The position numbers were made by a program, and so were the translations under genes. From contig NZ_NIBG01000008.1 in assembly GCF_002270055.1 (NCBI RefSeq), forward strand, positions 90,113 through 154,112: a DNA stretch of 64,000 bases, given 5' to 3'. Each line of letters starts with the position of its first letter. The stretch's first letter is position 1. This document shows, one piece after another, positions 126 to 39,984 of the stretch. The stretch comes from Anaeromicrobium sediminis. GTDB taxonomy: Bacteria > Bacillota > Clostridia > Peptostreptococcales > Thermotaleaceae. The notes under the pieces are model-generated. The model made no database searches, was not told where the DNA came from, and saw only the letters and a list, made by a program, of their open reading frames with translations.

Positions 126-1631
126 TTACTCATTAATTATATCTATAATTTTCTTAGATTTAATAAAGTTATATGATTTATTAATATCTACAGATAAATT
201 TCTATCCTCTTCTAAGAAGGATACCTCTTTTCTGAATGCTTCCCATACTTTCTTAGTATACTTGCCAGCCTTTTCTACCTTCCTTAAATCCATAGCTTGG
301 GCTGCATGCATTAACTCTATCCCTAGGATGTAAAAAAGATTATCAACTATTTTAGTTGTCTTTTGAACTACTAATGGAGTATTATTTGCATGATCCTCTA
401 TATCCCCTGCCACAGAAAAGAAATCTGCCGTTACAGGATTAGATAGATGTCTTATTTCCGTATCTAATGATGTAAATACCTTCTGAATAGTACCATAAGC
501 AATTACTCTAGTATCTGCTGGCGTTAAGAACCTTGATAGTCCAGTAAACTTAGGTCTAGCTAACTTTATTGTTCTATGACAAGCTGCCTTAGATAAATGG
601 CTAAGAGCTATTCCTAACATTTCAAAGCCTATTGCCCATGTGGTAGGTTCATAATTTGCACAGGCAACCATTCTTCTTTCATCTACTAATACACATGGAT
701 TATCCTCAGACGTATTTAAGTGAAGATGTAAATATTTTTCCACATGCTCAAGGGAATCTCTAACAGCTCCATGGATTTGACAAGACCCTCTAAAGCTAAG
801 GGGATCCTGTAGTGCATCTGCAACTCCAGGTAAGTATAAATAACTTCCTTCTAGGAATCTTCTCACATTGTCTGCACTCTTATTTTGTCCTGGAAATGGT
901 CTAATCTTATGGGTAGATTCATCAAGGGGAGTCACATTTCCCTTTAGGCCTTCTAGGGACATGGCATAAATTAAATCTGCCATATCAAGTAAATCTTGCA
1001 CATCCTTTAAGACAAGAGCTCCCTCTCCAGCAGCCAATGCATTAGAACTTACTATTGCAAGGCCATCCTTTGGACCTAACACAATTGGCTCAAGCCCTTC
1101 TATTTCGTAAGCTTCCTTAGTAGTCATAAGTTTACCCTTATAATAAACATTTCCCTCTCCCATGGCTGCAAGGCCAATATGAGATAAACATGTTATATCT
1201 GCTTCTCCTACAGACCCCCTCTTTGGTATCTGTGGAAGTATATCTCGATTTATAAACTCTGCATATCTTTCTACTAACTTAGGCTGAGCTCCCGTATATC
1301 CTAATAAATAATTATTAAGTCTAGCTACTAATATGGCCCTTGTTTCTTCTAATGTTGCATCAGGTCCTACACCTAAAGTATGGGCTAATACTAGGTTTCT
1401 ATTATACTCTTCATAGTATCTTTCAAAGATTTCCCTATCCTTATTAAGACCTACCCCCCTATTAAATCCATATACGGGTACATCACTATTTAGCATTTCA
1501 TATACAAACTCTCTTGATTTCACAATTCTTGCATAAGCCTCTTCACTGATTTCAACTGCATATCCATCACGGGCTATTTTACTTATTTTATCCACTGTTA
1601 AATTATTTCCATCTAATACAACCTTCTTCAT
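126..1631 (-). CDS. HAL/PAL-family protein lacking the MIO triad (HutH paralogue)
   Basis: A 501-residue member of the histidine/phenylalanine ammonia-lyase fold. The start is the ATG at 1631, eight bases after AGGAG. Canonical enzymes build the catalytic MIO group from Ala-Ser-Gly in GSxGASGDLAPLSH. Here the same position reads GSVGEADITCLSH: no Ser, and one residue shorter. Retained: the Tyr of VYGFNRGVG (HutH Tyr53 equivalent), the His of NLVLAHTLGVGP (His83), the Arg of SFRGSCQIHG (Arg283) and the Glu of IEDHAN (Glu414). Changed: NGTQ to SSNA, Tyr280 to Leu, NFHGQ to NYEPT. The normal MIO elimination chemistry therefore looks impossible. It sits beside a BCCT transporter and the SARP-like regulator, with a bona fide hutH at 13828-15360. 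Function unknown: possibly a non-MIO lyase, a subunit or a sensor. Confidence 0.85.
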   Translation of the reverse strand: MKKVVLDGNNLTVDKISKIARDGYAVEISEEAYARIVKSREFVYEMLNSDVPVYGFNRGVGLNKDREIFERYYEEYNRNLVLAHTLGVGPDATLEETRAILVARLNNYLLGYTGAQPKLVERYAEFINRDILPQIPKRGSVGEADITCLSHIGLAAMGEGNVYYKGKLMTTKEAYEIEGLEPIVLGPKDGLAIVSSNALAAGEGALVLKDVQDLLDMADLIYAMSLEGLKGNVTPLDESTHKIRPFPGQNKSADNVRRFLEGSYLYLPGVADALQDPLSFRGSCQIHGAVRDSLEHVEKYLHLHLNTSEDNPCVLVDERRMVACANYEPTTWAIGFEMLGIALSHLSKAACHRTIKLARPKFTGLSRFLTPADTRVIAYGTIQKVFTSLDTEIRHLSNPVTADFFSVAGDIEDHANNTPLVVQKTTKIVDNLFYILGIELMHAAQAMDLRKVEKAGKYTKKVWEAFRKEVSFLEEDRNLSVDINKSYNFIKSKKIIDIINE

Positions 1632-1712
1632 TTCCACCACTCCTCTTATAAAATCTAAAATTAAATTCTCAGACTATACACATAAACAGATTACTTTATA
1701 ACTCAATAAACG

Positions 1713-1992: not shown

Positions 1993-3558
1993 TTATTTTG
2001 ATTCCTCTTTCATTCCATTAACCTTATCGTACTTTTTATGATTTACAATCATATATACTCCACCAGCTGCCATAGCCAACATGAAGAATAGGATTGGGAA
2101 ACCGGCCACAGTGGATATTTGCTTAGTAGCATCTATACCACTTATCTTTCCACCAGCAGATAATAAGTTAATTATTGCTAGAGATGACATTACTACACCC
2201 CAGAATATCTTAACTTGCCCTGGTGCTTCAGCTTGATCATCATTATATGCAGTAGTAGATAGTGATGATATGGTTGAAGTCATAGAGTCTGCCAATGTTA
2301 CTATAGATACGAATATGGCTACAATATATATGATACTTGTAACTTTAAATCCAGGGAAATTCTTCAAGAATTCAAATACAGCAACTTCATTTCCACCAGC
2401 TTTCATGGCTTCAACGATTCCAGCACCATTCATTTGAAGGTTTACTGCTGCTCCACCAAATACTGCAAACCAAATTAAACCGAAAGTAGCTGGTAATACT
2501 AAGTTAACCATCATAAATTCCTTAATAGTACGTCCTTTTGATATTCTTGCAAAGAACATACCTGTAAGTGGTGCATAAGCAAGCCAAATAGCCCAGTAGT
2601 AAATAGGCCACCATCTTGGCCATGGAGATCCGTCTATTGGACTCATATATAAAGTTCTCTCAAAGAAATTTTGTATGAAGTGACCAGTAGATTGAGTTCC
2701 AAAGTTTACTATAAATCTTGAAGGCCCCAATATAAATACAAATACTAACATTACTATAAATAGTTTTGCATTATTATCAGATAACCACTTGATACCCCTT
2801 TGTAATCCTGTGTAACTTGAAATTACATATGTTAAAACGATACCTGCAACTATTGCTATCCATAACATTTTTCCCGTTTCAATTCCAGTAAGTATGTTAA
2901 GTCCACTACCTATTTGCATGGTACCTACACCTAAGATAGCAGAAACTCCACCAGCTATGGCAAATAATGAAATATTATCTACAATAGCTCCAACTGACCC
3001 TTTTATCTTTTCTCCAAAGAATGGATATAGGGTAGAACTTACTTGGAATGGTAACTTTGCATTATATACACAGAAAGCTATAGTTACCCCTGCAATTGCA
3101 TACATACCATAAGGTAAGAACGTCCAGTGAATTAAAGTTTGAGTCATAGAAAACATTGCTGCTGCTTCAGACCCTGGTGTAAGACCAAGAACTTCTGGTG
3201 GATTGTACATGTGAGTTAATGGCTCAACAACTCCCCAGAATAATACTCCTGTACCTATACCAGCACAGAGTGAAATTGCAAACCAGTTCCAATAACTTAA
3301 CTCAGGTTTTGCATCTGGCCCACCCAACTTAATTTGTCCATATTTAGAACACATTAAATAAATACATAATGCTAAGAAAATAAGTCCTGATATTTGGAAT
3401 AGCCATCCAAAGTTTTCAAATGCAAATTGTGCGATTGCATTTTCTGCATTGAAGAATGCTTCTGGAGCCACAATTCCAGTTATTATTGCCAATAAAAATA
3501 TTATTGACATTGGAATGAATATGGACATCCTTAAACTAGCCTTTTCTAACTTCTTCAT
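1993..3558 (-). CDS. BCCT-family transporter
   Basis: A 521-residue polytopic membrane protein of the betaine/choline/carnitine transporter family. Family signatures are GTGVLFWGVVEPLTHMYNPP early and, centrally, the aromatic segment WPRWWPIYYWAIWLAYAPL running into GMFFARISKGRTIKEF. About 12 hydrophobic segments with a short charged tail, normal length for the family. BCCT proteins carry quaternary amines or related zwitterions by Na+ or H+ symport or by exchange; the substrate cannot be read here. Its neighbours are histidine-catabolic genes, and its promoter shares an 11-bp-spaced heptamer pair with the fhs promoter. Histidine or a histidine-derived betaine is therefore a reasonable but unproven substrate. 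Confidence 0.92.
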   Translation of the reverse strand: MKKLEKASLRMSIFIPMSIIFLLAIITGIVAPEAFFNAENAIAQFAFENFGWLFQISGLIFLALCIYLMCSKYGQIKLGGPDAKPELSYWNWFAISLCAGIGTGVLFWGVVEPLTHMYNPPEVLGLTPGSEAAAMFSMTQTLIHWTFLPYGMYAIAGVTIAFCVYNAKLPFQVSSTLYPFFGEKIKGSVGAIVDNISLFAIAGGVSAILGVGTMQIGSGLNILTGIETGKMLWIAIVAGIVLTYVISSYTGLQRGIKWLSDNNAKLFIVMLVFVFILGPSRFIVNFGTQSTGHFIQNFFERTLYMSPIDGSPWPRWWPIYYWAIWLAYAPLTGMFFARISKGRTIKEFMMVNLVLPATFGLIWFAVFGGAAVNLQMNGAGIVEAMKAGGNEVAVFEFLKNFPGFKVTSIIYIVAIFVSIVTLADSMTSTISSLSTTAYNDDQAEAPGQVKIFWGVVMSSLAIINLLSAGGKISGIDATKQISTVAGFPILFFMLAMAAGGVYMIVNHKKYDKVNGMKEESK

Positions 3559-3635: not shown

Positions 3636-3667
3636 ATTTTAGCACACTAAAGTCAAAATAAAGTCAA
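3636..3667 (-). promoter_or_regulatory. BCCT promoter with SARP-type heptamer pair
   Basis: Extended -10 TGCTAAAAT (-10 at 3636-3641). Two identical heptamers TTGACTT at 3650-3656 and 3661-3667 start 11 bp apart, and the nearer ends exactly 8 bp before the -10. In fact TTTTGACTTTA is a perfect 11-bp tandem duplication. This is the operator geometry known for SARP activators. The fhs promoter has the same layout. Confidence 0.6.
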
Positions 3668-3785: not shown

Positions 3786-6686
3786 TTATTTTTTATTTCT
3801 ATTTGCCATTTTATCTTTTACTTCCTCATATACCTTCATGGCATTTGGATTTTTAATTTTCTCTGCTACTTCCTTTGATTTTTTCAAATGTAGGGAAGCC
3901 AAATTATAATTTTCTTCTTCTATCAGTAATAAGGCCATATATCCATGGGCAATTGAACGTCCCCAAAGGTAATTTAATTTAGAATATATACTAAGGGCCT
4001 TTTTAATATATTCTTTAGATTTTTTATAATCCTTCATATTATAGTATGCTTGACCTATATTAGTATAAACGGTAGGTAATCCTACTATTATATTTTTACT
4101 CTCACATAGGATAACTGCCCTTTTATAAAATATTATGGCATCTTCATTTTGATTATTTATTCTCTTAGCATCTCCCATATAATGATATGCTGCCGCTATA
4201 TTTAATATATACTTATTATTTTCATCTAATGTGGTGAGTATATTTATTGAGCTTTTAAGAAGTTCCTCTGCGGATTCATATTCTCCCTTTAATATGTTAA
4301 GGTATCCTTTAAATCTTAAAAATACTCCTTTTTTATCCATATAATTTTCTTTGCTTATTATTTCAAAGGCCTTATTAATATACTCTTCCATCATATTAAT
4401 ATTAGATGTATTCATACAATAATATATTAATTGTTGATATCCTTCTAATGCCAATAAATATTCTTTAATTTCTAATGCCTTATGAATTATTTTTTCTGTT
4501 ATATTAATACCCCTTTTATAGTCTCCCGTTGCAATATAGTATTTTCCTAACATATTTAAATAATGTAGCTCTATAACTCTTAAGGTTTCTCCCTTACCAC
4601 TCTTTTTTAACTCTTTGATTATATTTTTTATTTCCTCTAGTTTTTTGATTACTTCTCCCTTGTTAACTTCCTTTGAATCATATTTACCAATTAATTTTGG
4701 ACTAACTAATGGAAAGACTTCCTGAGTTAATTGTAAATAAGTTTTAAAGTTTTTTACTATATATTCTAATTCTTTTAATTTATTGCCGCTCTTGTTAAAG
4801 TGATATATTAATCTACCATAATAGGAGTCATCCTCATAGGCCATTTGGCCTTCTATATAGTTTGCCACTTTATTGTGCAAAAGTTTTTTTCGTGAAAGAC
4901 TCATTTGATTATACACATAATCCCTTATTTTTTTATGAGTAAACACAAATTCAATTTCGTCACCTGTTATACGCTCTTTTATAATATTTTTTTCCTGTAG
5001 TTCTTCTATAATATCCATAAGTTCTAACTCTTTTTTTCCACTTAAGGATATTATATCCCTTAAAGTTATCTTATCAAAAAATATGGAGAATATATTTAGT
5101 ATCTTTCTACTTTCTTCAGAAATACTAAGTAGTCTATGCCTTAATATGTTCTTAGTTTTATCGGATATATCTGTAAGGCTTTTATTCTCTCTAATATTAT
5201 TTAATATTTCTACTAGGAAAAATGTATTTCCCTCTGTTTCTTTATATAAAATATGATTTAACTCTTTAGTTATAATATTTTTACCTAAGTATACTTTAGA
5301 AAACTTAAACACGTCTTCCCTACTAAACCTTTTGATTGGAATTTCATCCAATATATTATTTTTTATCATTTTACTTAAAAACAATTCTAATTCTTGTTTA
5401 TTATAGCTTCTATATGTGAATACAAAAAATATATCACTATTTTTTTGCATAATATTCTTAATTAAGGATAGGCTTGATTTATCAATCCATTGGATATCAT
5501 CAAAAAACAATACTATCTTTTTATTTCTTGAGATGGTTTTTAATATATTAATTATGATCTCTTCTGCCACCTGATATTTTAAAATATCTACATTTTCTAT
5601 GAGATTTACATGCTTTATATTATCTTTAATACTAATTCCAGGGAATATATAACTTATGACATTTTCCCATAAAACAGGAATCTTAATATTATCTTCCTTT
5701 ATTATATTTCCTAATTGATTAAAAATTTGTGACCAGGGTTTTAATAAATAATGTTTTTCTACTTCATAACATCTACTTATAAACTTATAGGAGTCATCTT
5801 TTATACACTTGTCCATAAATTCTTCTGCCAATTTAGTTTTTCCTATACCTTCTTCCCCCGTCAATACCATATTCTTGTATTCTTTATCCCTTATGAAATT
5901 ATTAAAATTCTTTTTTAATTTCTTTAGTTCCTTCTCACGTCCAAATAAAAAACTTCTAGACTTTTCTGTATCCTCTTTGTTTTTCATAGCCTTTTTTTGA
6001 ATCAATTCTTCAAATAATTCTGTAGTCTTCACATCTGGAGTTATGGCCAATTCTTTATCTAGAATATTGACTAATTTATTATATACTTCTATTCCCTTAT
6101 TGTAGTTCTCTACTTGATCATATACACCCATGAGAAACCTGTAGGCCTTTTCATCTAATTCATCTATTTTTATAAGCCTTTTACAATTACTTTCCGCTTC
6201 TTCATATAATTTATTTTTAAAATCCATGTCTATCTTTTTATTTAATCTGTCTATGAGTTTATCCTTATATTCTTCCTTCTTTCCAATCATCCACTCTTGA
6301 AAATTCTCAGCATCTTTAATTAAAAATCCCTGTAAAAACTCCCCTTCATATTCTATGTTATTTTCTATATTGTCCTTTAAAAAATTCTCCACATCAATAT
6401 GCCAATCAATATCTTCATTTAACATTAAAATAGATCTACTTGGTGATATGATTATATCATCCTTGAATAGTTTTCTTATGGTATATACTGCATTTCTTAA
6501 ATTTTTCTTTCCCGTACTCTCATTGGCCTCACACCAAAGAAGATTTACTAGTTCATTTCTCTTAGCTCTTTTTTTCACAAGTAAATAGTAAAAAAGGGCC
6601 TCTGCCTTTCTAAAGGGAAAGCTTATTCTATTTTCTTCATAAAATATTTCTGGTGTACCAAATAATTTAGCTACTATTTTTACCAT
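3786..6686 (-). CDS. SARP-like transcriptional regulator with ATPase and TPR domains
   Basis: A 966-residue regulator. Residues 1-100 resemble an OmpR/SARP winged helix (FRKAEALFYYL, LLW, NLRNAVYTIRK). Residues 100-235 form a BTAD-like helical domain (DELDEKAYRFLMGVYDQ). A STAND-type P-loop ATPase follows, with Walker A GEEGIGKT at 277-284 and Walker B IVLFFDD at 391-397. The C-terminal third is a tandem array of TPR-like helices. Such proteins usually activate transcription after an effector or partner engages the ATPase/TPR part. It lies between the BCCT/HutH-paralogue pair and fchA, read in the same direction. The paired heptamers at the fhs and BCCT promoters fit SARP operators, so I infer it controls histidine use. 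The inducer is unknown. Confidence 0.85.
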   Translation of the reverse strand: MVKIVAKLFGTPEIFYEENRISFPFRKAEALFYYLLVKKRAKRNELVNLLWCEANESTGKKNLRNAVYTIRKLFKDDIIISPSRSILMLNEDIDWHIDVENFLKDNIENNIEYEGEFLQGFLIKDAENFQEWMIGKKEEYKDKLIDRLNKKIDMDFKNKLYEEAESNCKRLIKIDELDEKAYRFLMGVYDQVENYNKGIEVYNKLVNILDKELAITPDVKTTELFEELIQKKAMKNKEDTEKSRSFLFGREKELKKLKKNFNNFIRDKEYKNMVLTGEEGIGKTKLAEEFMDKCIKDDSYKFISRCYEVEKHYLLKPWSQIFNQLGNIIKEDNIKIPVLWENVISYIFPGISIKDNIKHVNLIENVDILKYQVAEEIIINILKTISRNKKIVLFFDDIQWIDKSSLSLIKNIMQKNSDIFFVFTYRSYNKQELELFLSKMIKNNILDEIPIKRFSREDVFKFSKVYLGKNIITKELNHILYKETEGNTFFLVEILNNIRENKSLTDISDKTKNILRHRLLSISEESRKILNIFSIFFDKITLRDIISLSGKKELELMDIIEELQEKNIIKERITGDEIEFVFTHKKIRDYVYNQMSLSRKKLLHNKVANYIEGQMAYEDDSYYGRLIYHFNKSGNKLKELEYIVKNFKTYLQLTQEVFPLVSPKLIGKYDSKEVNKGEVIKKLEEIKNIIKELKKSGKGETLRVIELHYLNMLGKYYIATGDYKRGINITEKIIHKALEIKEYLLALEGYQQLIYYCMNTSNINMMEEYINKAFEIISKENYMDKKGVFLRFKGYLNILKGEYESAEELLKSSINILTTLDENNKYILNIAAAYHYMGDAKRINNQNEDAIIFYKRAVILCESKNIIVGLPTVYTNIGQAYYNMKDYKKSKEYIKKALSIYSKLNYLWGRSIAHGYMALLLIEEENYNLASLHLKKSKEVAEKIKNPNAMKVYEEVKDKMANRNKK

Positions 6687-6794: not shown

Positions 6795-7412
6795 TTATAA
6801 TACTACTTTTCCTAAGATTCTCTTTTCTACTTCTTCTACTTTTGATTCAATTTCTTCTACTTGTGCACTTACTTCTTCTACAAAAGCTTCATCCTTTATA
6901 GAACCTAAGTTAATCTTTACATTATATAATGCAGATAACACAGCTGTTCTAGACATCATGGCAGCTACAGCACCATCTGTTACAGCATTTTGATTTCCCT
7001 TTACTACAACAACCTCTATGATTTCCATAATCTCTAGAGCCTTTTTAGCCACACTTAGTGGAACTAACGATGCGCTCTTAGATCCAGCTTGAATAGCTTC
7101 TCTTCTCTTAGCCTTGTCTTCATCTGTTTCCTTAGGTAATTTAAATGCATCCATAACTTCGTTAAATGCATCTGAATCCCTATCTATGTCAAGGACGAAT
7201 TCAGTTCTAAATTCTTCAGCCTTCTTAGCTATTTCTTTCATTTCTTCTTCTACTTCAACATACTTTTTCTTACCTACAGTAAGGTTTGCAACCATCTCAG
7301 TTAAAGCTGCTGCTATACCTCCAGATAATGCTGCTATACTTCCACCACCAGGAACTGGTTCATTAGAAGCCGTTTTATTTAAAAATTCTTTAACATTTAA
7401 ATCTGCTAACAT
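6795..7412 (-). CDS. fchA: Formimidoyl-THF cyclodeaminase
   Basis: A 205-residue stand-alone FTCD_C-type protein. The N-terminal signature FLNKTASNEPVPGGGSIAAL is followed by an all-helical body with DIDRDSDAFNEVMDAFKLP, both typical of the family. It converts 5-formimino-THF to 5,10-methenyl-THF and ammonia, the step after FtcD. In mammals the two activities are fused; in Clostridia they are separate, as here. Last gene of the fhs-hutU-ftcD-hutI-fchA transcription unit, 86 bp after hutI with an element C hairpin in the gap. Confidence 0.93.
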   Translation of the reverse strand: MLADLNVKEFLNKTASNEPVPGGGSIAALSGGIAAALTEMVANLTVGKKKYVEVEEEMKEIAKKAEEFRTEFVLDIDRDSDAFNEVMDAFKLPKETDEDKAKRREAIQAGSKSASLVPLSVAKKALEIMEIIEVVVVKGNQNAVTDGAVAAMMSRTAVLSALYNVKINLGSIKDEAFVEEVSAQVEEIESKVEEVEKRILGKVVL

Positions 7413-7498: not shown

Positions 7499-8767
7499 TT
7501 AGTATAATAATCCGCTGTTTTCGTTATTTACAACTAATTTACCACCCTTTATAACCTTCTCTACAGTGTTAACTCCTATGTGGTATGGTATAAACTTATA
7601 TGAAGGGAATTCAAGGATTACTAAATCACCTTTCTTGCCTTCGTCTATACTTCCTACTTCATGAGCACGGTCTATGGCCGCTGCACCATTAATAGTAAGG
7701 GCTGTAATAGCCTCTTCAATAGTCATATTCATATATAGTGTAGATAAAGCAAATAATAATGGTATGGATTCTGTATGACAGCTTCCAGGATTAAAGTCAG
7801 TAGCTAGTGCCACAGCACAACCGTTATCTATCATAAATCTTCCACGAGCATAATGTTCCTTTAAACTAAATGCTGTAGCCGGTAATAATGTGGCCACAAC
7901 TCCAGCTTCAGCCATTTTCGTTATGCCTTCATCTGATGCTTGAAGTAAGTGGTCTGCAGATACGGCTCCAACTTCTGCTGCTAGATCAGCTCCACCTAAG
8001 TGTACAATCTCATCTGCATGTAACTTTAGTTTCATTCCCATTTCTTTTGCTTTATTTAATAACTTTCTAGACTCTTCTACTGAGAATACATTTTTCTCAC
8101 AGAATATATCACAAAACTCTGCTAAATCATTTTCTACCACATGTGGAAGAACTGTTTCAATTATATAATCAATAAAGTCTTCTCCACGCCCCTTATAACC
8201 AACTGGAACTGCATGGGCACCTAGGAATGTCTTACTTATATCCATAGGATGGATTTTTTCTAATTCTTTCATTACTTCCAATTGTTTAATCTCCGTGTCA
8301 AAATCTAAACCATAACCACTTTTACCTTCTACAGTTGTAACTCCAAATTTCAACATGGAATCAAGTCTTTTCTTTCCAAGTTCTATAAGATCTTCTTTAG
8401 ATGCCTTTAATGTTCCATTTGTAGAGTTTGCGATTCCGCCACCAGCTTGCATAATCTCCATGTAAGAGCAACCTCTAAGTCTCATGTCAAATTCTTTTTC
8501 TCTATATCCACCAAATACAAAGTGAGTATGAGAATCTACAAATCCAGGAAGTACAGCCTTACCAGTGGCATCTATAACTTCATATTTAGACTCATCCACA
8601 TTTGCCATTATTTCATCTGTCTTACCTACTTTTTTGATTATTCCATCTTCTATTACTACAGCGCCATTTTCTATTACATGGATATCATCCATTTCTTTTC
8701 CAGTTTTACCTTTAAATCCACTACAAGTTACTAGTTGATTTGCATTTTTAATTATCATATTTCCCAT
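7499..8767 (-). CDS. hutI: Imidazolonepropionase
   Basis: A 422-residue amidohydrolase that opens 4-imidazolone-5-propionate to N-formimino-L-glutamate. Metal and substrate motifs: GFVDSHTHFVFGG (HxH), KLHADEIVHLGGADLA (His on the metal), SADHLLQAS and LATDFNPGSCHTES (catalytic Asp and substrate-binding segment). An ATG at 8773 is also in frame, but the ATG at 8767 is nine bases after GGAG and is preferred. The ftcD stop is six bases upstream, so the two are translationally close. Third step of the histidine pathway, cytoplasmic. Confidence 0.96.
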   Translation of the reverse strand: MGNMIIKNANQLVTCSGFKGKTGKEMDDIHVIENGAVVIEDGIIKKVGKTDEIMANVDESKYEVIDATGKAVLPGFVDSHTHFVFGGYREKEFDMRLRGCSYMEIMQAGGGIANSTNGTLKASKEDLIELGKKRLDSMLKFGVTTVEGKSGYGLDFDTEIKQLEVMKELEKIHPMDISKTFLGAHAVPVGYKGRGEDFIDYIIETVLPHVVENDLAEFCDIFCEKNVFSVEESRKLLNKAKEMGMKLKLHADEIVHLGGADLAAEVGAVSADHLLQASDEGITKMAEAGVVATLLPATAFSLKEHYARGRFMIDNGCAVALATDFNPGSCHTESIPLLFALSTLYMNMTIEEAITALTINGAAAIDRAHEVGSIDEGKKGDLVILEFPSYKFIPYHIGVNTVEKVIKGGKLVVNNENSGLLY

Positions 8768-8773
8768 AATCAT

Positions 8774-9679
8774 CTACTCCATTAAGCTAGTTTCTATAAC
8801 TTTGTCCATTGAGAATCCATATAATCCTAAGTAGTAAGCTGCACTATCTATTAAAGCTTCCATAGGAACAAGTCCTACTACTTCACTACCTAATACATTA
8901 ACTCCATATCTCTTAGCTTCCATTTTAACTGTTTCAAATACTCTGTATACAGAAGTCTTAGTATAATCTGTAATATTCATTGTTACTTGAGTAATTCCTC
9001 TTTCTTTAATTTCAACTCCACCAGCTTTAATGTATCTAAATCCACCACCAGAGTGTCTAATAGCTCTTGCAATCTTGTTTGCAATTTCCACATTTTGAGT
9101 ATCTAAGTCAATGTTATAAGCTACAAGTGGCATTCTAGCTCCTACTGCTGTAACACCTGCTGTTGGGTGAATTTCATTCTTACCAAAGTCTGGATGCCAT
9201 TCTGGATCTTGTAACTTTTCAGGCATTCCTTCAAATTGTCCCTTTCTTACCTTTGCTAAGTTTTCTCTAGCTGGTGTACTTGCTGCCTTTTCATATAAGA
9301 ATACTGGAATATCATGTGCTTCATTTATTGCTTTAGCTGTTTCTTTTGCAAGCTCAACAGCTTCTGCCATAGACATATTCTTAATAGGAATAAATGGTAC
9401 TACATCTGTAGCTCCCATTCTAGAATGTTGTCCTTCATGCTTAGTCATATCAATTAATTCAGCTGCAATACCTACAGATTCTACTACTGAATTTTTTACT
9501 GCCTCTGGCTCTCCCATTATAGTAACTACCACTCTATTGTAATCTTTATCAGCTTCATAATTTAATAATTTTACATTTTCTGCTTGTCTATATGGATCAA
9601 CTATTTTCTCTATTTTATCCATATCTCTACCTTCACTATAGTTAACAACACATTCTACTATTTTTCTTGCTTCACTCAT
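8774..9679 (-). CDS. ftcD: Glutamate formimidoyltransferase
   Basis: A 301-residue FTCD_N-type protein that moves the formimino group of formiminoglutamate to THF, releasing glutamate. Typical segments: VECVVNYSEGRD at the N-terminus, HSRMGATDVVPFIPI (the conserved GATDVVPF block), HPTAGVTAVGARMPLVAYN and GLVPMEALIDSAAYYLG near the end. Length is normal for the stand-alone bacterial enzyme. It requires FchA, encoded two genes downstream. Upstream gap to hutU is 104 bp and holds an element C copy. Confidence 0.95.
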   Translation of the reverse strand: MSEARKIVECVVNYSEGRDMDKIEKIVDPYRQAENVKLLNYEADKDYNRVVVTIMGEPEAVKNSVVESVGIAAELIDMTKHEGQHSRMGATDVVPFIPIKNMSMAEAVELAKETAKAINEAHDIPVFLYEKAASTPARENLAKVRKGQFEGMPEKLQDPEWHPDFGKNEIHPTAGVTAVGARMPLVAYNIDLDTQNVEIANKIARAIRHSGGGFRYIKAGGVEIKERGITQVTMNITDYTKTSVYRVFETVKMEAKRYGVNVLGSEVVGLVPMEALIDSAAYYLGLYGFSMDKVIETSLME

Positions 9680-9783: not shown

Positions 9784-11805
9784 TTATTTTTCTAACTTTT
9801 CAGCTACTAATTTCTTTACTAGGTCTTCCTTTGGAATATATGGTAATGTAATATGATCTTGACCTTTGTAAATTTCATTATATTCTACACAAGTAGATAC
9901 GGCATTTTCGTTTCTAGCCCAAGCACGTCTAGCAACTCCACCCATAACATCCCAAGGCATAGCGCTCTTTAAAATGTTATCTACTCTAGTACTTCCATCT
10001 AGAACCATACCAAATCCACCATTGATAGATTTTCCGATTCCTACACCACCACCATTGTGAAGAGCTATTAAACTCATACCACGAGCAGCATTTCCTGCGA
10101 AAATGTGAGTAGCTTGGTCTGCCATAATATTACTTCCATCTTTAATGTTAGATGTTTCTCTAAATGGAGAATCAGTTCCACCTGTATCATGGTGATCACG
10201 ACCTAACATTACTGGTCCAATTTCTCCACGTCTAACCATTTCGTTAAACTTAAGAGCAATTCTCATTCTTCCAAGGGCATCTTGATATAGAATCCTTGCT
10301 TGAGTTCCAACAACTAATTTATTATCATCTGCATCTTTAATCCAAATGTAGTTGTCCTTATCTTGATATCTTCTCTCTGGATCGATGCAGTCCATAGCAG
10401 CCTTATCAGTCTTTAATAAGTCTTCATGCTTACCACTTAAGCATACCCATCTAAATGGACCATATCCAAAGTCAAATAATTGAGGTCCTAATATATCTTC
10501 CACATAAGATGGCCAAATAAATCCATCCTTATCGTCTCTACCATTTTTAGAAATTTCCTTAACTCCTGAATCATAGATAGCTTTCATAAAAGCATTTCCA
10601 TAATCGAAGAAGTAAGTTCCACGGCTAGTTAATTCTTTAATTACTTCATAGTGAGTCTTTAAAGTCTCATCTACTAATTCTTTAAACTTAGCCTTATCTT
10701 CTCCAAGTAATCTTGTTCTTTCTTCAAAAGATATTCCTTGTGGACAGTATCCACCAGTGTATACTTCATGACAAGAAGTTTGGTCAGATAATAAATGTAT
10801 ATGAACGTCATTCTCTACTGCATATTGTAATAAATCAACTATATTACCATGGAATGCAATAGCACAAGTTTCTTCTTTATCCATGTAGTCTTGAGCTAAG
10901 TCAAATGCTTCCTTTGGACTCTTAGCAACTGCACTTACCCATCCTTGTTCATGACGAGTTACGATTCTTGAGTAGTCAACTTCTGCAATGATACCTACAC
11001 CTTTAGCTATCTCTACAGCTTTACCTTGAGCTCCACTCATTCCACCAAGTCCAGAAGTAACAAATAATTTACCTTTTAAGTCATCCTTAATTCCAAGCTT
11101 CATTCTACCAGCACCTAAGATAGTAGAGTAAGTTCCATGAACGATACCTTGAGGTCCAATGTACATCCAACCACCAGCAGTCATTTGTCCATAGTTAGCA
11201 ACTCCTAGTGCTGCTGCTCTGTTGAAGTTTTCCATATCATCAAACATACCAACCATAAGTCCATTAGTAATAATTACTCTTGGAGCGTCTGGCTTTGAAT
11301 GGAATAATCCTAGAGGATGTCCTGAATGGATAACTAATGTTTGATCTTGAGTTAATACTTCTAAGTATTTCTTAATTAATAGATATTGCATCCAGTTTTG
11401 ACAAACTTGACCCGTTTCTCCATAAGTAACTAACTCATAAGGATAAAGAGAAATGGCAAAGTCTAAGTTGTTGTCCATCATTACTTGGAAAGCTTTTCCT
11501 TCAATACATTGTCCCTTATACTCATCAATTGATTTTCCTGTAATATTTCCCTCTGGTCTAAATCTATATCCATAGATTCTTCCCTTAGTCATTAATTCCT
11601 CTAAGAATTCTGGAGCTACTACTTCATGAAATTCTTCTGGTACATATCTTAGAGCATTTTTAAGAGCCAATTCTATTTCATCTTGAGATAGATTAACGTC
11701 TCTCTTTGGAGCTCTTCTTAAACCTTCTATAAATGCTGGATATTCCGGTAATACTGCATCTAATTTAACTTCCATAGCTTGTGCTACTTCTTTATTTGAT
11801 AACAT
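9784..11805 (-). CDS. hutU: Urocanate hydratase (long form)
   Basis: A 673-residue urocanase, converting urocanate to 4-imidazolone-5-propionate with tightly bound NAD+. Diagnostic segments are SGHPLGLFHSKPDAPRVIIT, TAGGWMYIGPQGIVHGTYST, the NAD-binding glycine-rich SGLGGMSGAQGKA, DQTSCHEVYTGGYCPQG (conserved Cys) and RDHHDTGGTDSPFRETS near the C-terminus. The familiar Bacillus/Pseudomonas enzymes are about 550-560 residues; this belongs to the longer class of about 675 shared with animals and many anaerobes. Second enzyme of the pathway, between fhs and ftcD. Confidence 0.96.
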   Translation of the reverse strand: MLSNKEVAQAMEVKLDAVLPEYPAFIEGLRRAPKRDVNLSQDEIELALKNALRYVPEEFHEVVAPEFLEELMTKGRIYGYRFRPEGNITGKSIDEYKGQCIEGKAFQVMMDNNLDFAISLYPYELVTYGETGQVCQNWMQYLLIKKYLEVLTQDQTLVIHSGHPLGLFHSKPDAPRVIITNGLMVGMFDDMENFNRAAALGVANYGQMTAGGWMYIGPQGIVHGTYSTILGAGRMKLGIKDDLKGKLFVTSGLGGMSGAQGKAVEIAKGVGIIAEVDYSRIVTRHEQGWVSAVAKSPKEAFDLAQDYMDKEETCAIAFHGNIVDLLQYAVENDVHIHLLSDQTSCHEVYTGGYCPQGISFEERTRLLGEDKAKFKELVDETLKTHYEVIKELTSRGTYFFDYGNAFMKAIYDSGVKEISKNGRDDKDGFIWPSYVEDILGPQLFDFGYGPFRWVCLSGKHEDLLKTDKAAMDCIDPERRYQDKDNYIWIKDADDNKLVVGTQARILYQDALGRMRIALKFNEMVRRGEIGPVMLGRDHHDTGGTDSPFRETSNIKDGSNIMADQATHIFAGNAARGMSLIALHNGGGVGIGKSINGGFGMVLDGSTRVDNILKSAMPWDVMGGVARRAWARNENAVSTCVEYNEIYKGQDHITLPYIPKEDLVKKLVAEKLEK

Positions 11806-11942: not shown

Positions 11943-13622
11943 CTAGAATAACCCTGAAATGTTTCCGTCTTCATCTATATCCATTCTATTAGCAGATGGT
12001 ACCTTTGGAAGTCCTGGCATTACCATGATATTTCCTGTTAAGCATACGATAAATCCAGCTCCATTAGATACTCTTACTTCTTGTACTGTTATATCAAAAT
12101 CTTTAGGCGCACCTAATAGATTTTGGTTATCTGATAATGAGTATTGAGTTTTAGCCATACAAACTGGAAGTTTATCAAGTCCTAACTCTTCTAACTTCTT
12201 AATTTGCTTCTTAGCTTTACCACTAAATACAGCACCACGTCCACCATATATTTCAGTTACGATAGCGTTTACCTTTTCTTCAATAGGTTGTTTTTCATCA
12301 TAGATGAATTTAAAGTCTGGAGTTTCTCCTTCGATCATTGAAACTAACTTTTCAGCCATTTCAATTCCACCTTCTCCACCTTTTTCCCAACATTCATTTA
12401 ATACTACGTCTACGCCTGCATCTTCACACTTCTTAATTAAAAGATCAATTTCAGCTTGAGTATCTGTAGCAAACTTATTGATTGCAACTAATGCAGGTAA
12501 TCCAAACTTTCTAATGTTTTCAACTTGCTTCTCTAAATTTGCAAATCCCTTATCTAGAGCTTCTACGTTTTCTCCAGATAACTCTTTTTTGTTTACTCCA
12601 CCATGCATTTTAAGAGCTCTAATTGTAGCAACTATTACTACTGCATCCGGACTAAATCCGCCATATCTACACTTGATGTTTAAGAACTTTTCAGCTCCTA
12701 AGTCTGCACCAAATCCTGCTTCTGTTACTAAGTAGTCACCTAATTTTAATCCTAACTTTGTAGCCATTATACTGTTACAACCATGAGCTATATTAGCAAA
12801 AGGTCCACCGTGTATAAGTGCTGGTGTGTTTTCTAATGTTTGCACTATATTTGGCTTGATAGCATCTTTAAATAACATGGCCATAGCTCCGTGTACACCT
12901 AATTCCTTAGCATAAACTGGTGCTCCTTCATAATTGTATCCTATTACCATCTCTCCAAATCTTCTCTTTAAATCCATTAAATCAGTAGCTAAACATAATA
13001 CTGCCATAACTTCTGATGCAACGGTAATCATAAATCCATCTTCACGAACGAAACCATTTCCCTTAGGTCCAAGTCCTACAACAACGCTTCTTAAGTTTCT
13101 ATCGTTCATGTCTAATACTCTTTTCCAAGTAATTTGACGAGCATCGATGTTAAGTTCATTTCCTTGTTGAATATGGTTGTCTATAGCTGCTGATAATAAG
13201 TTGTTAGCAGTAGTTATAGCGTGCATATCTCCAGTAAAATGTAAGTTAATGTCTTCCATTGGAACTACTTGTGAATATCCACCACCTGCAGCTCCTCCTT
13301 TAACTCCGAATACAGGTCCTAAAGATGGTTCTCTTAAAGCAATTACTGCCTTTTTACCAACCTTGTTTAATGCCTGACCAAGACCTACTGTTGTAGTAGA
13401 TTTTCCTTCTCCAGCTGGAGTCGGGTTAATTGCAGTAACTAATACTAGTTTTGCATTTTCTTTATTTTCTAATCTTTTAAATATATCTAAAGATATTTTT
13501 GCCTTATATTTTCCATATAACTCTAATTCATCATCTAATATATCCCAATCTTTTGCTATATCAGCTATTGGTAACATTTTTGCACCTTGTGCTATTTCTA
13601 TATCGCTTGGAACTTTACTCAT
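11943..13622 (-). CDS. fhs: Formate-tetrahydrofolate ligase
   Basis: A 559-residue formyl-THF synthetase. ATP site [20 protein letters not shown], then [20 protein letters not shown] and [14 protein letters not shown], all family hallmarks; length is standard. In acetogens it activates formate using ATP. Placed first in the hut transcription unit it most likely runs in reverse, turning formyl-THF derived from histidine into formate plus ATP. The methenyl-THF cyclohydrolase (FolD) needed in between is not in the window. Driven by a promoter at 13659-13690 with SARP-type heptamers, separate from hutH. Confidence 0.97.
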
Positions 13623-13658: not shown

Positions 13659-13690
13659 ATTATAGATGGTTTCCGTCTCTAAAACGTCTC
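13659..13690 (-). promoter_or_regulatory. fhs-hut operon promoter with SARP-type heptamer pair
   Basis: A -10 TATAAT at 13659-13664 has no recognisable -35. Instead GAGACGT (13684-13690) and GAGACGG (13673-13679) start 11 bp apart, and the nearer copy ends exactly 8 bp before the -10. This matches SARP activator operators. Spacing is identical to the BCCT promoter, and both heptamers have a GAC core. Confidence 0.65.
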
Positions 13691-13789
13691 CATCTTTTAA
13701 TTTTTAGAAATTATCTAATTTTTGTGAAATTTGACGTTTTGTGACTTATTTAATTACAGTTCCACAATTTATAATGCCCTAGTGGCTAA

Positions 13790-13827
13790 AAAAAACTCCT
13801 GTGAGAATGCTCTCACAGGAGTTTTTA
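13790..13827 (-). terminator. Strong terminator after hutH
   Basis: Twelve-base stem CTCCTGTGAGA / CTCACAGGAG followed on the minus strand by TTTTTTT. It separates hutH from the fhs-hutU-ftcD-hutI-fchA unit. Confidence 0.9.
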
Positions 13828-15360
13828 TTAAAATTCTAATTCACCTATTGCTTCTTCAACAGCTTCTACTATAACATTGCTGTCTACTAATTCTGCTGCT
13901 TTGTTTATATCTCTATACATTACTCTATCATCTTCCCAAGTGCTTACTACTTCTCTTACTTTTTCATAAGCAACTTTAGTTCCTAATCCTAGCTTTTCGC
14001 TACCTCCATTTAAGTCTATAGCTTGTACAGCACTTATAAGTTCTATAGCTACTACACGACTAGCATTGTAGCAAATATCTCTAGCTCCTCTAGCTGCAAT
14101 AGTTCCCATACTTACATGGTCTTCTTGGTTTGCAGAGGATGGAATAGAATCTACACTTGCTGGATGAGCTAATACCTTATTTTCTGATACTAGAGCTGCT
14201 GCTGCATATTGAGCAATCATAAATCCAGAGTGAAGTCCTCCCTTTTTAGTTAAGAAAGCTGGTAATCCACTTAAAGCAGGGTTTACTAATCTTTCAATTC
14301 TTCTTTCAGATACGTTAGCAATCTCTGCTATGGCAATCTTTAAGAAATCAAATGGTAATGCCATTGGCTGACCATGGAAGTTCCCTCCTGAAATAGCATA
14401 TTCGTCATCAGCAAAGATAAGTGGGTTGTCTGTAACTCCATTCATTTCTATATCCACTTTACTTAATACATAGTTAATAGCATCTTTACTAGCTCCATGA
14501 ATTTGAGGTAAGCATCTTAATGTGTATGCATCTTGTACTCTTATTTCACCTTGTCTAGTAGTTCTTCCACTATCCTTAACTATTCTTAAGAAGTTTTTAC
14601 CCGTATCCATTTGCCCCTTGTGTGGACGCACCTTATGAACTCTTTCATCATAAGCATCTACTATTCCGTTTAATGCCTCCAGTGTTAATGATGCAGATAT
14701 ATCAGCAAGCTTTGCTAAGTTCTTAGCATCGTAAGCCGCTAAAGCTCCTGTAGCTGTAAGTACTTGCGTTCCGTTAATAAGGGCTAAACCTTCTTTAGAA
14801 GTAAGTTCTACAGGAGTGATTCCAGCCATTTCCATAGCCTTTATACCATCCATAAGTTCTCCCTTATAATATGCTTCTCCGTCTCCAATTAAAGGTAGTA
14901 CCATATGTGAAAGAGGTGCTAAGTCACCACTAGCTCCTAAAGATCCTTTTTCTGGAATAGCTGGATGTACTCCCTTGTTTATCATTTCAATTAATGTATC
15001 TAGTGTATTTGGTTGAATTCCTGAGAATCCTTTAGAAAGGGCATTTGCACGCATAACCATGATGGCTCTTACTATGTCTTCAGAAAAATTTGGACCTACG
15101 CCACAAGCATGACTGATGATTAAGTTTCTTTGTAAGTCCTTAGCTTCGTCCTTAGTTATGCTCACATCGCTGAACTTTCCAAAACCAGTAGTTATACCAT
15201 AGACAACCTTTTCCTCATCAACTAACTTGTCTACAAAAGCTCTAGATTTTTCTACTCTCTTTCTAGCTTCACCATCTAGTTCCACTTCATATCCATGTCT
15301 TGCCACGTTAACTAAATCTTTCAGAGTTAAACTATTTCCGTCAATAATAACTTTTTTCAT
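13828..15360 (-). CDS. hutH: Histidine ammonia-lyase
   Basis: A 510-residue canonical HAL: deaminates histidine to urocanate, first step of the pathway. The MIO triad Ala143-Ser144-Gly145 is intact in GSLGASGDLAPLSHM. Other active-site residues in place: Tyr54 (VYGITTGFG), His84 (NLIISHACGVGP), NGTQ, the Tyr and Arg of AYTLRCLPQIHG, Phe of GGNFHGQPM and Glu of SANQEDHVSMG. It has its own promoter and terminator, so it is transcribed separately from the rest of the pathway. Compare the MIO-less paralogue at 126-1631. Confidence 0.97.
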   Translation of the reverse strand: MKKVIIDGNSLTLKDLVNVARHGYEVELDGEARKRVEKSRAFVDKLVDEEKVVYGITTGFGKFSDVSITKDEAKDLQRNLIISHACGVGPNFSEDIVRAIMVMRANALSKGFSGIQPNTLDTLIEMINKGVHPAIPEKGSLGASGDLAPLSHMVLPLIGDGEAYYKGELMDGIKAMEMAGITPVELTSKEGLALINGTQVLTATGALAAYDAKNLAKLADISASLTLEALNGIVDAYDERVHKVRPHKGQMDTGKNFLRIVKDSGRTTRQGEIRVQDAYTLRCLPQIHGASKDAINYVLSKVDIEMNGVTDNPLIFADDEYAISGGNFHGQPMALPFDFLKIAIAEIANVSERRIERLVNPALSGLPAFLTKKGGLHSGFMIAQYAAAALVSENKVLAHPASVDSIPSSANQEDHVSMGTIAARGARDICYNASRVVAIELISAVQAIDLNGGSEKLGLGTKVAYEKVREVVSTWEDDRVMYRDINKAAELVDSNVIVEAVEEAIGELEF

Positions 15361-16348: not shown

Positions 16349-18319
16349 TTACTCATATTTAGGAATAGTGATAATAGCCTTAAATAAATCTCCATCTATA
16401 TCTATATTAAAATTTCCCTTTTGTAACTCTACAAGACTCTTAGCAATGGATAATCCAAGGCCACTCCCTTCACTCTGCCTAGATTCATCTCCACGTTTAA
16501 ATCTCTCCATGAGTTCATTGGCATCTATATTTAATTCATTGGCAGATATATTTTTCATCACTATGGATATACTATTTTGTGAATCTATCACATCTATATA
16601 TACTCGTGAATTCATGAGTGCATATTTAAATATATTAGACATGAGGTTTTCTATAACTCTCCACAATAATTTTCCATCTGCCTTTACAAAGGCCTTTTCC
16701 TCAGGATAATTGAATTTAAAGTCTAAACCAGAAGAATTTATCTTATTATCTAACTCCCCCATCACTTGAGTTAGTAAAGATATTATATCTATTTTTTCAA
16801 AATTCACAGGAATACTACCACTAGATGCCTTTGATGCTTCAAATAAATCATCTGTTAAAAGCTTTAATCTTAAGGATTTTTCCTCTAATACTTGTAAATA
16901 TTCTTTTATATTTTGGGAATCCACATCTTCTTTTTTAAGTAAATCTATATAAGTTATTATAGATGTAAGGGGTGTTCTTATATCGTGAGATACATTACTA
17001 ATAAGTTCTGTCTTTAACCTTTCACTTTTTAGCTCCTTTTCAATGGCAACTTTAAGACCTTCAGTCACTCCATTTATGCCATTTGCTAGTTCCTTATATA
17101 CACCGCTACTTTCTGTTTTTATCTCATAATTTAGTTGGCCCTTTTCAATTGACTTTATTCCAGTCATTATTCTCTCTAAATCCCTTACTTTTTTTGGTGT
17201 TGGAATCATTCTAATAGCCAGTGGAGATCTTTTTAATCCATTGCCTATAAATGAAAATATTTTTCTTATGATTTTATATATTAACGTATGACTAATTAGA
17301 GTTCTATTTTTAATACGTTTTGTCATGGTCAATAATAAATTAATTCCTATAGCACTAGCTATAGCGGCTAAAGGCATCATAGCTATTCGGGAAGATTCTG
17401 TGTAAATTAAATACGCACCTGCTAGGCAAACTATTATAATACTTCCATTTATTATTAAGTTCAAATCCACATAGGGTTTATCTATTAATGACATCTTCAC
17501 AGGACCATTTTTTTCTTCTCTTCCACAAGTATACATTAGGTGAATCAATGCAATCATAAGACCTATACATGCACCTATAATAATTTTTAAATGAAATAAT
17601 AAAACTGTTCTTCTCTCATCCCAATTCTTTTGTTTTAAATTTATAAATTCTTCACCAAAACCAATATAAACAGTTTCATTATCATAATCCTCGAACCATC
17701 GCCTCATATAATACCTCATATTCGGACCTTCTATTGAAACATGTTGTTCACTTTCATCATAGGTAATATATACAGGTTGTGATTTAAAGAATTTCTTTGA
17801 AGCATCTACTGAATTGGTTTTTACATAGTCTCCTTCAGATATGAAATAATGTAAGCCTTCTATACTATTTATCTTGTTTAATTTTTCATTATATCTTCTT
17901 AAATCTTCATTTATTTTCTTAGTTTTCCATTCATTAATCTGTGAAAAATATTCCTTTTCAAATGCTTCTTTCACATCATCTTCTTTTATCTCATCTTTTT
18001 TTAGTTTACTCTCTTCATAGAATTTTTCTTGAAAACCATAATATAAATTTTGAAGTTCATTATCATAATTATGTTCTTTTAACGTGCCACCACTTTTAAT
18101 ATGCTCTTCATCTTTGTAAATAGTTAAAATATTAATTAGATCTGAAGATATATCATATATTTCGTTTTCCAGTTCATAGCTTCTTTTATAATCTCCTTTA
18201 AAAATTAAGTCTCCATCCATATGTCTCATAGAAGAAATCTCAATCACAGAGGCTATAATAGTAACTGAACAAGCAACAGCTACTAAAAAAGATACTGCCT
18301 TAATAAATCTGTTATACAT
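16349..18319 (-). CDS. Sensor histidine kinase
   Basis: Two-component sensor of about 656 residues from the ATG at 18319 (SD AAGGTGG nine bases upstream). Layout: N-terminal TM helix, extracytoplasmic domain of about 210 residues rich in charged residues, then three TM helices, a HAMP-like linker (RDLERIMTGIKSIEKGQLNY), the H-box NVSHDIRTPLTS (His about 445), the N-box RVIENLMSNIFKYA and the G-box GSGLGLSIAKSLVELQKG. Overlaps the 3' end of the response regulator by 8 bp, so the pair is one operon. Resembles sensors linked to envelope stress or peptide resistance, but the signal cannot be read from sequence. Confidence 0.93.
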   Translation of the reverse strand: MYNRFIKAVSFLVAVACSVTIIASVIEISSMRHMDGDLIFKGDYKRSYELENEIYDISSDLINILTIYKDEEHIKSGGTLKEHNYDNELQNLYYGFQEKFYEESKLKKDEIKEDDVKEAFEKEYFSQINEWKTKKINEDLRRYNEKLNKINSIEGLHYFISEGDYVKTNSVDASKKFFKSQPVYITYDESEQHVSIEGPNMRYYMRRWFEDYDNETVYIGFGEEFINLKQKNWDERRTVLLFHLKIIIGACIGLMIALIHLMYTCGREEKNGPVKMSLIDKPYVDLNLIINGSIIIVCLAGAYLIYTESSRIAMMPLAAIASAIGINLLLTMTKRIKNRTLISHTLIYKIIRKIFSFIGNGLKRSPLAIRMIPTPKKVRDLERIMTGIKSIEKGQLNYEIKTESSGVYKELANGINGVTEGLKVAIEKELKSERLKTELISNVSHDIRTPLTSIITYIDLLKKEDVDSQNIKEYLQVLEEKSLRLKLLTDDLFEASKASSGSIPVNFEKIDIISLLTQVMGELDNKINSSGLDFKFNYPEEKAFVKADGKLLWRVIENLMSNIFKYALMNSRVYIDVIDSQNSISIVMKNISANELNIDANELMERFKRGDESRQSEGSGLGLSIAKSLVELQKGNFNIDIDGDLFKAIITIPKYE

Positions 18320-19004
18320 TATATTTTTCCACCTTATATCCAATTCCCCACACCACCTTTAAATATTTTGGTTCTTTAGGATTTATCTCAATCTTTTCTC
18401 TTATTCTTCTTATGTGCACAGCAACTGTGTTCTGTGCTCCATAGGCATAATCATTCCACACTTTTTCATAAATCTCTTCAATAGAATATACTATCCCTGC
18501 ATTTGCTACTAGTTCCTTTAAAATTTTATATTCTAGGGGAGTTAATTTAACTATCTCATCATCTATAGTCACTTCCTTTCTCTCATCATCAACTACTAAA
18601 CCACCAGTTCTAAATATACCTGTCTTTTTAGCATAACTCCCAAAGGAAGTATATCTTCTCAATTGTGATTTTACCCTAGCTATTAGTTCTAATGGATTAA
18701 ATGGCTTTGTCATATAATCATCTGCTCCCATATTTAATCCCATTATCTTATCCATATCCTCAGATTTAGCCGACAGCATTATAATTGGAATATTTTTAGT
18801 ATCCCTTATTTTGTTAGTAGCTGTCATACCATCCATTTTAGGCATCATAATGTCCATTATAATTAAATGTATCTCTTCATTTTCCAACACACTTAATGCC
18901 TCTGCCCCATTGTAAGCCTTAAATATGTTGTAACCTTCATTTTTAAGATATATTTCTATAGCATGGACTATTTCCTTATCATCATCACATACGAGTACAT
19001 TCAT
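18312..19004 (-). CDS. OmpR-family response regulator
   Basis: A 230-residue response regulator. Receiver domain: acidic pocket CDDDKEI, phosphoacceptor Asp in IIMDIMMPKMDG, and the Lys of DDYMTKPFNPLEL. C-terminal winged helix: VKLTPLEYKILKELVAN and NTVAVHIRRIREKIEINPKEPKYLKVVWGIGYK (split by a few residues). First gene of the operon with the kinase at 16349-18319. Upstream are two element A copies; no obvious inverted operator was seen. Confidence 0.96.
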   Translation of the reverse strand: MNVLVCDDDKEIVHAIEIYLKNEGYNIFKAYNGAEALSVLENEEIHLIIMDIMMPKMDGMTATNKIRDTKNIPIIMLSAKSEDMDKIMGLNMGADDYMTKPFNPLELIARVKSQLRRYTSFGSYAKKTGIFRTGGLVVDDERKEVTIDDEIVKLTPLEYKILKELVANAGIVYSIEEIYEKVWNDYAYGAQNTVAVHIRRIREKIEINPKEPKYLKVVWGIGYKVEKYNV

Positions 19005-34561: not shown

Positions 34562-34737
34562 CAAAAGGCATACTTTGTATGCTTCGTTATGGAACCCTAT
34601 GGTTCCCTTCGACGATTGCTAACGCAACCAGAACACCCTCCTTTAAAGAGGCAGGGGAATTCTTCCCCCACACCCCCTTATTTTTTTACTTATCCACAGT
34701 TTTTTAAATTTATAATCTCCTAGTAAGTAAAAAAGGA
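34562..34737 (+). repeat. Element B copy 2 (acpP-tsaD gap)
   Basis: GCATAC-TTT-GTATGC, GGAACC-CTAT-GGTTCC, GATTGC-TAAC-GCAA(C), CTTTAAAG and GGGGAATTCTTCCCC in order. A terminal pair TTTTTTACTTA ... TAAGTAAAAAA follows, enclosing a TTATCCACAG loop. Confidence 0.85.
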
Positions 34738-39853: not shown

Positions 39854-39984
39854 GTATATTTTGTAATTTTAAAAGAAGTATACCAACATTTTTTTCATAT
39901 GTCAATATGAATTTTCAAAATATTTTAAAACAACATTATTTTCTAATTATATTTAAGTATTTCTTCCTATCTTGCATAAGTATA

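Follow-up and report, generated by a model that had tools for sequence, protein, structure and literature searches.

The promoter described here heads an operon in the order fhs-hutU-ftcD-hutI-fchA, which lies on the minus strand of the window (the whole 64-kb stretch of DNA that was analysed) and is followed on the same strand by genes for a 966-residue regulator, a BCCT-family transporter and a lyase. The first gene, fhs (11943..13622), encodes formate-tetrahydrofolate ligase (Pfam FTHFS, 1.5e-275), hutU (9784..11805) encodes urocanase, ftcD (8774..9679) a glutamate formiminotransferase with the Pfam domains FTCD_N and FTCD, hutI (7499..8773) a Pfam amidohydrolase named imidazolonepropionase by its context, and fchA (6795..7412) a formiminotransferase-cyclodeaminase (FTCD_C, 1.7e-69). 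The regulator (3786..6686) has the BTAD/AAA_16/TPR architecture of large SARPs. The transporter (1993..3558) matches NCBIfam betaine_BCCT at 1.7e-127, below the curated cut-off, and the lyase (126..1640) is an ergothionase-like protein of HAL fold without the ASG/MIO motif, matched by PDB entry 6s7j. Histidine ammonia-lyase (hutH, 13828..15360, minus strand) stands outside the operon and has its own sigma-70-type promoter (TTGACT-18-TATAAT, 15461-15432), where a repeat pair was looked for and none was found. Between hutH and fhs, folding revealed a terminator hairpin (13788..13827, strand not assigned). The minus strand from 13830 to 13770 folds at -28.8 kcal/mol (z -8.05), and this strong hairpin sets the fhs promoter apart from hutH. 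The window also contains three members of the Clostridiales-2 RNA family (34602-34685, 41268-41351 and 53044-53127, minus strand), as well as fluoride and FMN riboswitches, a raiA RNA and a T-box leader (41421-41487, 45949-46072, 55093-55299 and 39624-39855, minus strand).

Read on the minus strand from 13690 to 13659, the promoter runs GAGACGT-TTTA-GAGACGG-AAACCATC-TATAAT. The two heptamers (13690-13684 and 13679-13673) form direct repeats separated by TTTA, with a start-to-start period of 11 bp, and together make up the candidate operator (13673..13690). The -10 element TATAAT (13659..13664) lies 8 bp past the second heptamer, or 9 bp past its GACG, and ends 37 bases ahead of the fhs start codon at 13622. 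With a spacer of 17 bp, the hexamer in the -35 position is ACGTTT, which has 1/6 matches to TTGACA. A preliminary description of this DNA had taken these elements for a SARP-type operator on a histidine operon promoter that lacks a -35, and the letters are exactly as it gave them. The layout reported for SARPs agrees as well, as far as the available text of the AfsR study goes: repeats 11 bp apart, the last of them 8 bp from the -10, and a poor -35 (PMC10936776).

When both strands of the window were searched, the pattern GAC-N8-GAC-N10-TANNNT gave two matches against 0.14 expected, and 0/100 dinucleotide shuffles of the window reached two. One is the fhs operator and the other, at 3665-3636, belongs to a site (TTGACTTTATTTTGACT-N9-TAAAAT, 3636..3667, minus strand) that shows this geometry again 109 bp upstream of the BCCT gene. 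In the 4.71-Mb genome the 18-bp repeat pair has a single perfect copy and one single-mismatch copy, the latter 425 bp upstream of a formate/nitrite transporter (FNT) gene. Loose patterns are not enriched in the window's own genome (G000): with up to three mismatches there are 197 matches vs 439 for the reversed pattern, and a second loose count gave 22 vs 21. Because the reversed pattern matches more often (439 vs 197), loose genome-wide counts were not used as evidence. Two exact copies of GACGGTTTGACGACG, at G000:C28:24124-24138 and 40034-40048 (minus strand), fit the loose repeat pattern.

Conservation of the site and co-occurrence with large BTAD regulators

Conservation in relatives is the decisive evidence for the operator. 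The family sample comprised 16 genomes, 15 of them with hutU, and GACG-N7-GACG was found upstream of fhs (13) or hutU (2) in all 15, at a distance of 9 bp from the -10 in 12 and 10 bp in three. The conserved part of the heptamers is GAC(G), with GACG-N7-GACG as the core, rather than all seven bases. In the order, where 247 genomes were searched, GACGYTTTNNNGACG-N9/10-TANNNT taken as an exact pattern produced 40 matches in 33 genomes, and the reversed control pattern produced 10 matches, summed. Downstream genes were assigned with 13 query genes, and the nearest one on the same strand was hutU in 15 cases, fhs in 13, hutH in six, FNT in four and a YjiH-like permease in two, so that all 40 agree with a role in histidine fermentation. 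FNT and the permease became queries after they had appeared beside sites, so the count fixed beforehand is 34/40. The name YjiH for this permease is our presumption; an NCBIfam search found no family for it at 1e-10, and a role in histidine use may be supposed.

Altogether 38/40 sites lie within 300 bp of the assigned gene. The exceptions are a site of G067 (L154), where the first downstream frame encodes a 224-aa methyltransferase-like protein and the permease is 1047 bp away, and the site of the window's genome at C3:310997, which lies inside a divergent reading frame 425 bp from the FNT gene. Both are among the weakest of the 40; C3:310997 was accepted as more than chance because sites also precede FNT genes in G005, G006 and G009. 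Several targets are unlinked to the hut cluster, namely second fhs copies (G020, G031), a second hutH locus (G042) and FNT genes (G000, G005, G009), which argues for a diffusible regulator.

Large regulators were scored as present (BTAD+) or absent (BTAD-) by a match at 1e-60 with the window protein as query. A long BTAD regulator was found in 76/247 order genomes and hutU in 162/247; 75 of the 76 also have hutU, the remaining one, G059, giving no hutU match. Every one of the 33 genomes with the exact pattern falls within these 76, so that among hutU-bearing genomes the pattern occurs in 33/75 BTAD+ vs 0/87 BTAD- (Fisher 7e-14, which measures strength and is no true probability, given that the genomes are related and the counts are not independent trials). 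We read 72 of the 75 BTAD+ hut loci (G068, G094 and G160, BTAD+ and hutU+, were left out, and for G052 the hutH locus was taken). Of the 87 BTAD- loci we read 15, picked for family spread and hence non-random; for the other 72 only the exact pattern was applied, and divergent regulators such as that of G198 may have gone unnoticed there. In the 400 bp preceding hutU, fhs or hutH, GAC-N8-GACN-N9/10-TANNNT is present in 71/72 BTAD+ vs 1/15 BTAD- loci, and mononucleotide-shuffled windows gave the same geometry at 0.0021 and 0.0025 per window. The single BTAD+ miss (L063) has the repeats, but its -10 reads CATAAT. The single BTAD- match comes from G198, which proved to have a full-length but divergent regulator. 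Searched with the L074 protein, it scores 1.8e-59 at 25% identity; the alignment contains one stop, and the open frame is 975. The other 14 controls are without a full-length regulator: two contain short BTAD frames and twelve gave no match at 1e-5.

The geometry itself is sharply defined in these loci. GACG pairs recur at the 11-bp period in 54/72 loci, and any other period from 4 to 30 occurs in at most two loci each. Of 84 GAC-N8-GAC pairs, 56 have a TATAAT-like hexamer (5/6) 9 bp downstream and five have one 10 bp downstream; each of the other distances between 2 and 24 accounts for six cases at most. Among the 71 scored sites the spacing to the -10 is 9 in 65 and 10 in six, in a pattern that admits only these two values; for L158 (G024), scored as 10 with TAATTT, a TATAAT at spacing 8 reads better. 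The best -35 match at spacers of 16-18 is 1/6 in 39 sites, 2/6 in 20 and 3/6 in 12, below random expectation, so that the missing -35 holds for 71/71 sites and not for the window alone. The first repeat reads GACG in 55, GACT in 11 and GACA in five of them. In one group (f2) the letters between the repeats are A-rich (GACTTAAAATAGACG and similar), with period and distance unchanged in 10/10. The repeat pair TAGACGAAATACAGACG was seen twice in one hut locus, L188 (positions 5110 and 7971), where one copy precedes fhs by about 350 bp and the second lies a further 2.9 kb upstream. A search for the motif upstream of hut genes in relatives, which the preliminary description had proposed, thus found the spacing kept in 15/15 family genomes and in 71/72 BTAD+ loci.

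Outside the order, 17/391 genomes of the class matched, with 18 sites, vs 34 matches (summed) for the reversed control. With the control matching more often, the bare count is uninformative here, and it is the position beside hut genes and the presence of the regulator that count. Two of the 18 sites belong to G000 and two to order members, upstream of fhs and hutH; nine precede fhs (4) or hutU (5) in members of two other families, and the remaining five stand where there is no hut gene. Regulators were then sought in 41 genomes, comprising the 14 matching genomes outside the order and all other drawn members of the two families. They were found in 9/9 genomes with hut-linked sites (G542 and G593 as partial matches only) and in 0/5 with unrelated sites. 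Among the 20 of the 41 genomes that carry hutU, the site is present in 9/11 BTAD+ vs 0/9 BTAD- (Fisher 3e-4). The two regulator-positive genomes without a site are G417, whose hutU lies at a contig start, and G448.

The regulator family and its paralogs

BTAD (PF03704) was found in 28/28 N-terminal segments scanned and also in the L074 paralog. Both L074 and the window protein contain AAA_16 and TPR and have the size of large SARPs, about 1000 residues, and 88/89 regulators carry a Walker A pattern. Four f4 genomes have 638-aa forms; these regulators (L208-L211, from G194, G202, G235 and G241) are without most of the TPR half and stand alongside intact GACG sites before hutU. Concerning the DNA-binding end, Pfam Trans_reg_C was detected in 9/28 members at E-values up to 0.1 (best 0.0014), and a profile of the 28 N-termini found AfsR at 6.5e-6 (BTA region) and EmbR at 4.1e-5, ranking below designed TPR proteins. 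An AlphaFold model of residues 1-250, built with five sequences, reached a mean pLDDT of 66.3, with residues 1-26 and 77-120 below 50. Searched with Foldseek, this model, in which the winged helix is poorly modelled, gave two AfsR chains first (8.6e-4 and 1.2e-3) and TPR proteins from 7.6e-3; the match to AfsR 8k60 spans 244 columns, but has a TM of 0.42 and an rmsd of 9.6 on a low-pLDDT model. VIA-align of the weak model gave TPR-like matches alone among those listed, mainly over residues 137-241. A phmmer search of the L074 protein against the PDB found no match at 0.01, and PADLOC found none for the window protein.

The window's genome has three long BTAD proteins. One is the window regulator, and a second, the L074 paralog (G000:C8:79738-82839), is located about 7 kb past the left edge of the window. 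In a FastTree phylogeny of 89 regulators, the window protein clusters with L031-L034, which are loci of named Clostridium (support 0.957), and together they belong to a larger group from which clade A is excluded (0.983). Its nearest neighbours are 12 paralogs, eight of which have a BCCT gene in the fetched stretch. Sites precede seven of these eight BCCT genes (clade-B loci), and their first repeat is GACT in 6/7; among the named Clostridium loci, those that carry BCCT show GACT...GACT in 3/3, as does the BCCT site of the window. The L074 protein falls in clade A (0.883) and joins L066, L064, L067, L246, L016, L012, L017 and L018 at 1.0. These partners, from the same-family genomes G004, G006, G008, G009, G011, G013, G014 and G015, are the only long BTAD proteins found there, and orthology to them makes L074 the better candidate for hut control. 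We therefore regard L074, with good but incomplete confidence, as the most likely regulator of the hut operator, while the window regulator probably controls the BCCT and ergothionase genes. The preliminary description had placed a SARP-like regulator with ATPase and TPR domains in the same cluster. A BTAD/AAA_16/TPR protein is indeed there, but it is probably the wrong paralog, outside the hut-type clade, and a gel shift with it could consequently fail for the wrong reason.

The main alternative puts the hut operon as well as the BCCT/ergothionase genes under the window regulator, with some other function for the outside paralog. It is the nearest such protein, directly after fchA, the half-site letters do vary among the scored sites, and its pairing with the BCCT-linked clade has a support of 0.439. 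In addition, G154, G169 and G187 have GACG hut sites alongside regulators outside clade A (in G169 a second long BTAD is absent from the tree), showing that clade and operator type match imperfectly. The placement of the window protein in a non-hut group and of L074 in clade A, together with the GACT first repeat of the BCCT-preceding sites, nevertheless makes this alternative unlikely, although it deserves more weight than those treated below. A specificity code in the recognition helix (YK in clade A, YT/S/I/M in the window and BCCT-linked proteins) is no more than a lead, as L203 and L207 combine YI with GACG sites. Searched across the order, the GACT pattern matched the window's own genome alone, vs 2 control matches, so the exact GACT form is not shared in the order, where BCCT-linked sites are mostly mixed GACT...GACG.

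Ergothioneine is a betaine of histidine. The best PDB match of the window lyase is 6s7j, which we take to be the Treponema denticola ergothionase (2.1e-155, next match 3.2e-66), and the ASG motif is absent. This fits an enzyme without MIO (PMC13405746). The lyase (126-1640), the BCCT transporter (1993-3558, both minus strand) and, past the window edge, a molybdenum hydroxylase operon (L074:4885-11921) represent a probable ergothioneine module; the operon likewise has an upstream GACT...GACG pair (TGGACTTTCTTTTGACG-N9-TAGAAT). In the same genome, a HutH-like protein comes after the third large BTAD protein (L075:8631-13496, G000:C6). A search of this HutH-like protein for an ASG motif was negative, and a degenerate TACG...GACG pair lies upstream of that regulator.

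Proposed mechanism and comparison with known systems

The site very probably represents the operator of a large SARP-type activator that would switch on a histidine-fermentation regulon. As a prediction from conserved geometry and co-occurrence with large SARP-like regulators, a SARP-type operator on the clostridial hut regulon is well supported in silico, and the proposal of the preliminary description holds in this respect. By analogy with AfsR, the GAC(G) repeats, spaced by a helical turn, would be occupied by two adjacent regulator protomers. Bound where a -35 would otherwise lie, these would hold sigma region 4 of RNA polymerase so that transcription starts from the -10; binding, activation, the dimer and the sigma contacts are all carried over from that relative. 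The ATPase/TPR half may gate activation by a pathway signal, perhaps a metabolite of the histidine pathway. The pathway yields formimino-THF, formate and ATP are recovered through FchA and Fhs, and formate leaves the cell via FNT. With sites in front of both the hut-fhs-fchA operon and FNT genes, such a regulon makes physiological sense.

Other actions at the same sequence are conceivable. The BTAD protein could bind there and repress by covering the promoter, as the site overlaps the -35 position. However, the -35 is poor throughout (1-3/6 in all 71 sites), so that these promoters look weak without help, and AfsR, the structurally studied relative, is described in the available text as an activator bound at the same position (PMC10936776); we judge repression improbable. 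Even less credible is an operator bound by a response regulator of the OmpR type, for example that encoded at 18312-19004. This regulator and a kinase lie 1-4 kb upstream of hutH, SARPs and OmpR regulators have a common winged-helix fold, and Pho-type boxes have an 11-bp period too. The window response regulator was nevertheless rejected as the binder for want of conserved linkage, with no relative of at least 45% identity in the 117 fetched loci searched, and the site tracks the BTAD regulator almost perfectly, unlike the response regulator. Finally, chance resemblance without function, for which the thin evidence of a lone 32-base site and the unenriched loose patterns could be cited, is practically eliminated by the position and spacing conserved in 71/72 loci vs 0/14 controls without a full-length regulator, by the co-occurrence with the regulator and by the window shuffles.

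Activation by a large SARP-type regulator is thus the reading we retain. We lean slightly towards a broader version of it, in which an AfsR-like family of Clostridia would serve primary amino-acid catabolism, its paralogs using GACG operators for histidine and formate genes or GACT operators for ergothioneine transport and cleavage, with one common promoter layout lacking a -35 and with ATPase/TPR halves each sensing the metabolite of their own pathway. The conserved pairing of site and regulator in dozens of genomes points to an overlooked control of amino-acid fermentation, in which SARPs would run the catabolism of histidine and probably also that of ergothioneine in Clostridia. If true, the presence across many clostridial families of a SARP regulon devoted to histidine fermentation would broaden the range and role of SARPs, suggest that they can act on promoters lacking a -35 beyond actinobacteria, link the use of histidine to that of ergothioneine, and offer a simple metabolic system for finding the signal of the AfsR-like ATPase/TPR half. 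For annotation, GAC-N8-GAC-N9/10-TANNNT may be used as a rule.

HutC, HutP and HisR, as far as the available sources describe them, likewise control genes of histidine use or biosynthesis. HutP controls histidine genes, and all three are of other kinds, in regulator and operator, than the system described here. One HisR paralog adjoins hutH in Oscillibacter according to the available text of the HisR paper, in which the terms SARP and BTAD have no occurrence (PMC9413887). Among the matches listed from the open-licence literature, titles and abstract openings mentioned no SARP or BTAD regulator acting on hut genes. The available parts of the SARP papers treat the family as antibiotic regulators (PMC10936776, PMC10972967), and a 2024 review places SARPs exclusively in actinobacteria (PMC10972967). 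As described there, the small SARPs ActII-ORF4 and DnrI use heptameric direct repeats overlapping the -35, likewise seen here, but they are without the ATPase/TPR half and have three heptamers at several sites, in which the clostridial system differs (PMC10972967). Unlike the Treponema denticola ergothionase, the window lyase, which is known from its sequence, adjoins a BCCT transporter and an AfsR-like regulator. The closest comparison is AfsR of Streptomyces coelicolor, a large SARP composed of a SARP domain, a nucleotide-binding domain and TPR, which acts at the afs box of the afsS promoter; in the available account, its SARP domains on the repeats give sigma region 4 a docking place that replaces the -35 (PMC10936776). 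Within the limits of that account, the clostridial system resembles AfsR in domain order, in a length of about 1000 residues, in the 11-bp repeats, in the 8 bp to the -10 and in the poor -35. In the structural search with the predicted N-terminus, AfsR chains also took the top two places, though this similarity is weak (6.5e-6; TM 0.42). It differs from AfsR, on the same partial account, in the clostridial host, in the GACG/GACT half-sites and in a target in amino-acid catabolism instead of antibiotic production. Large SARPs and their operators are known; what would be new is the same architecture in another phylum with another job.
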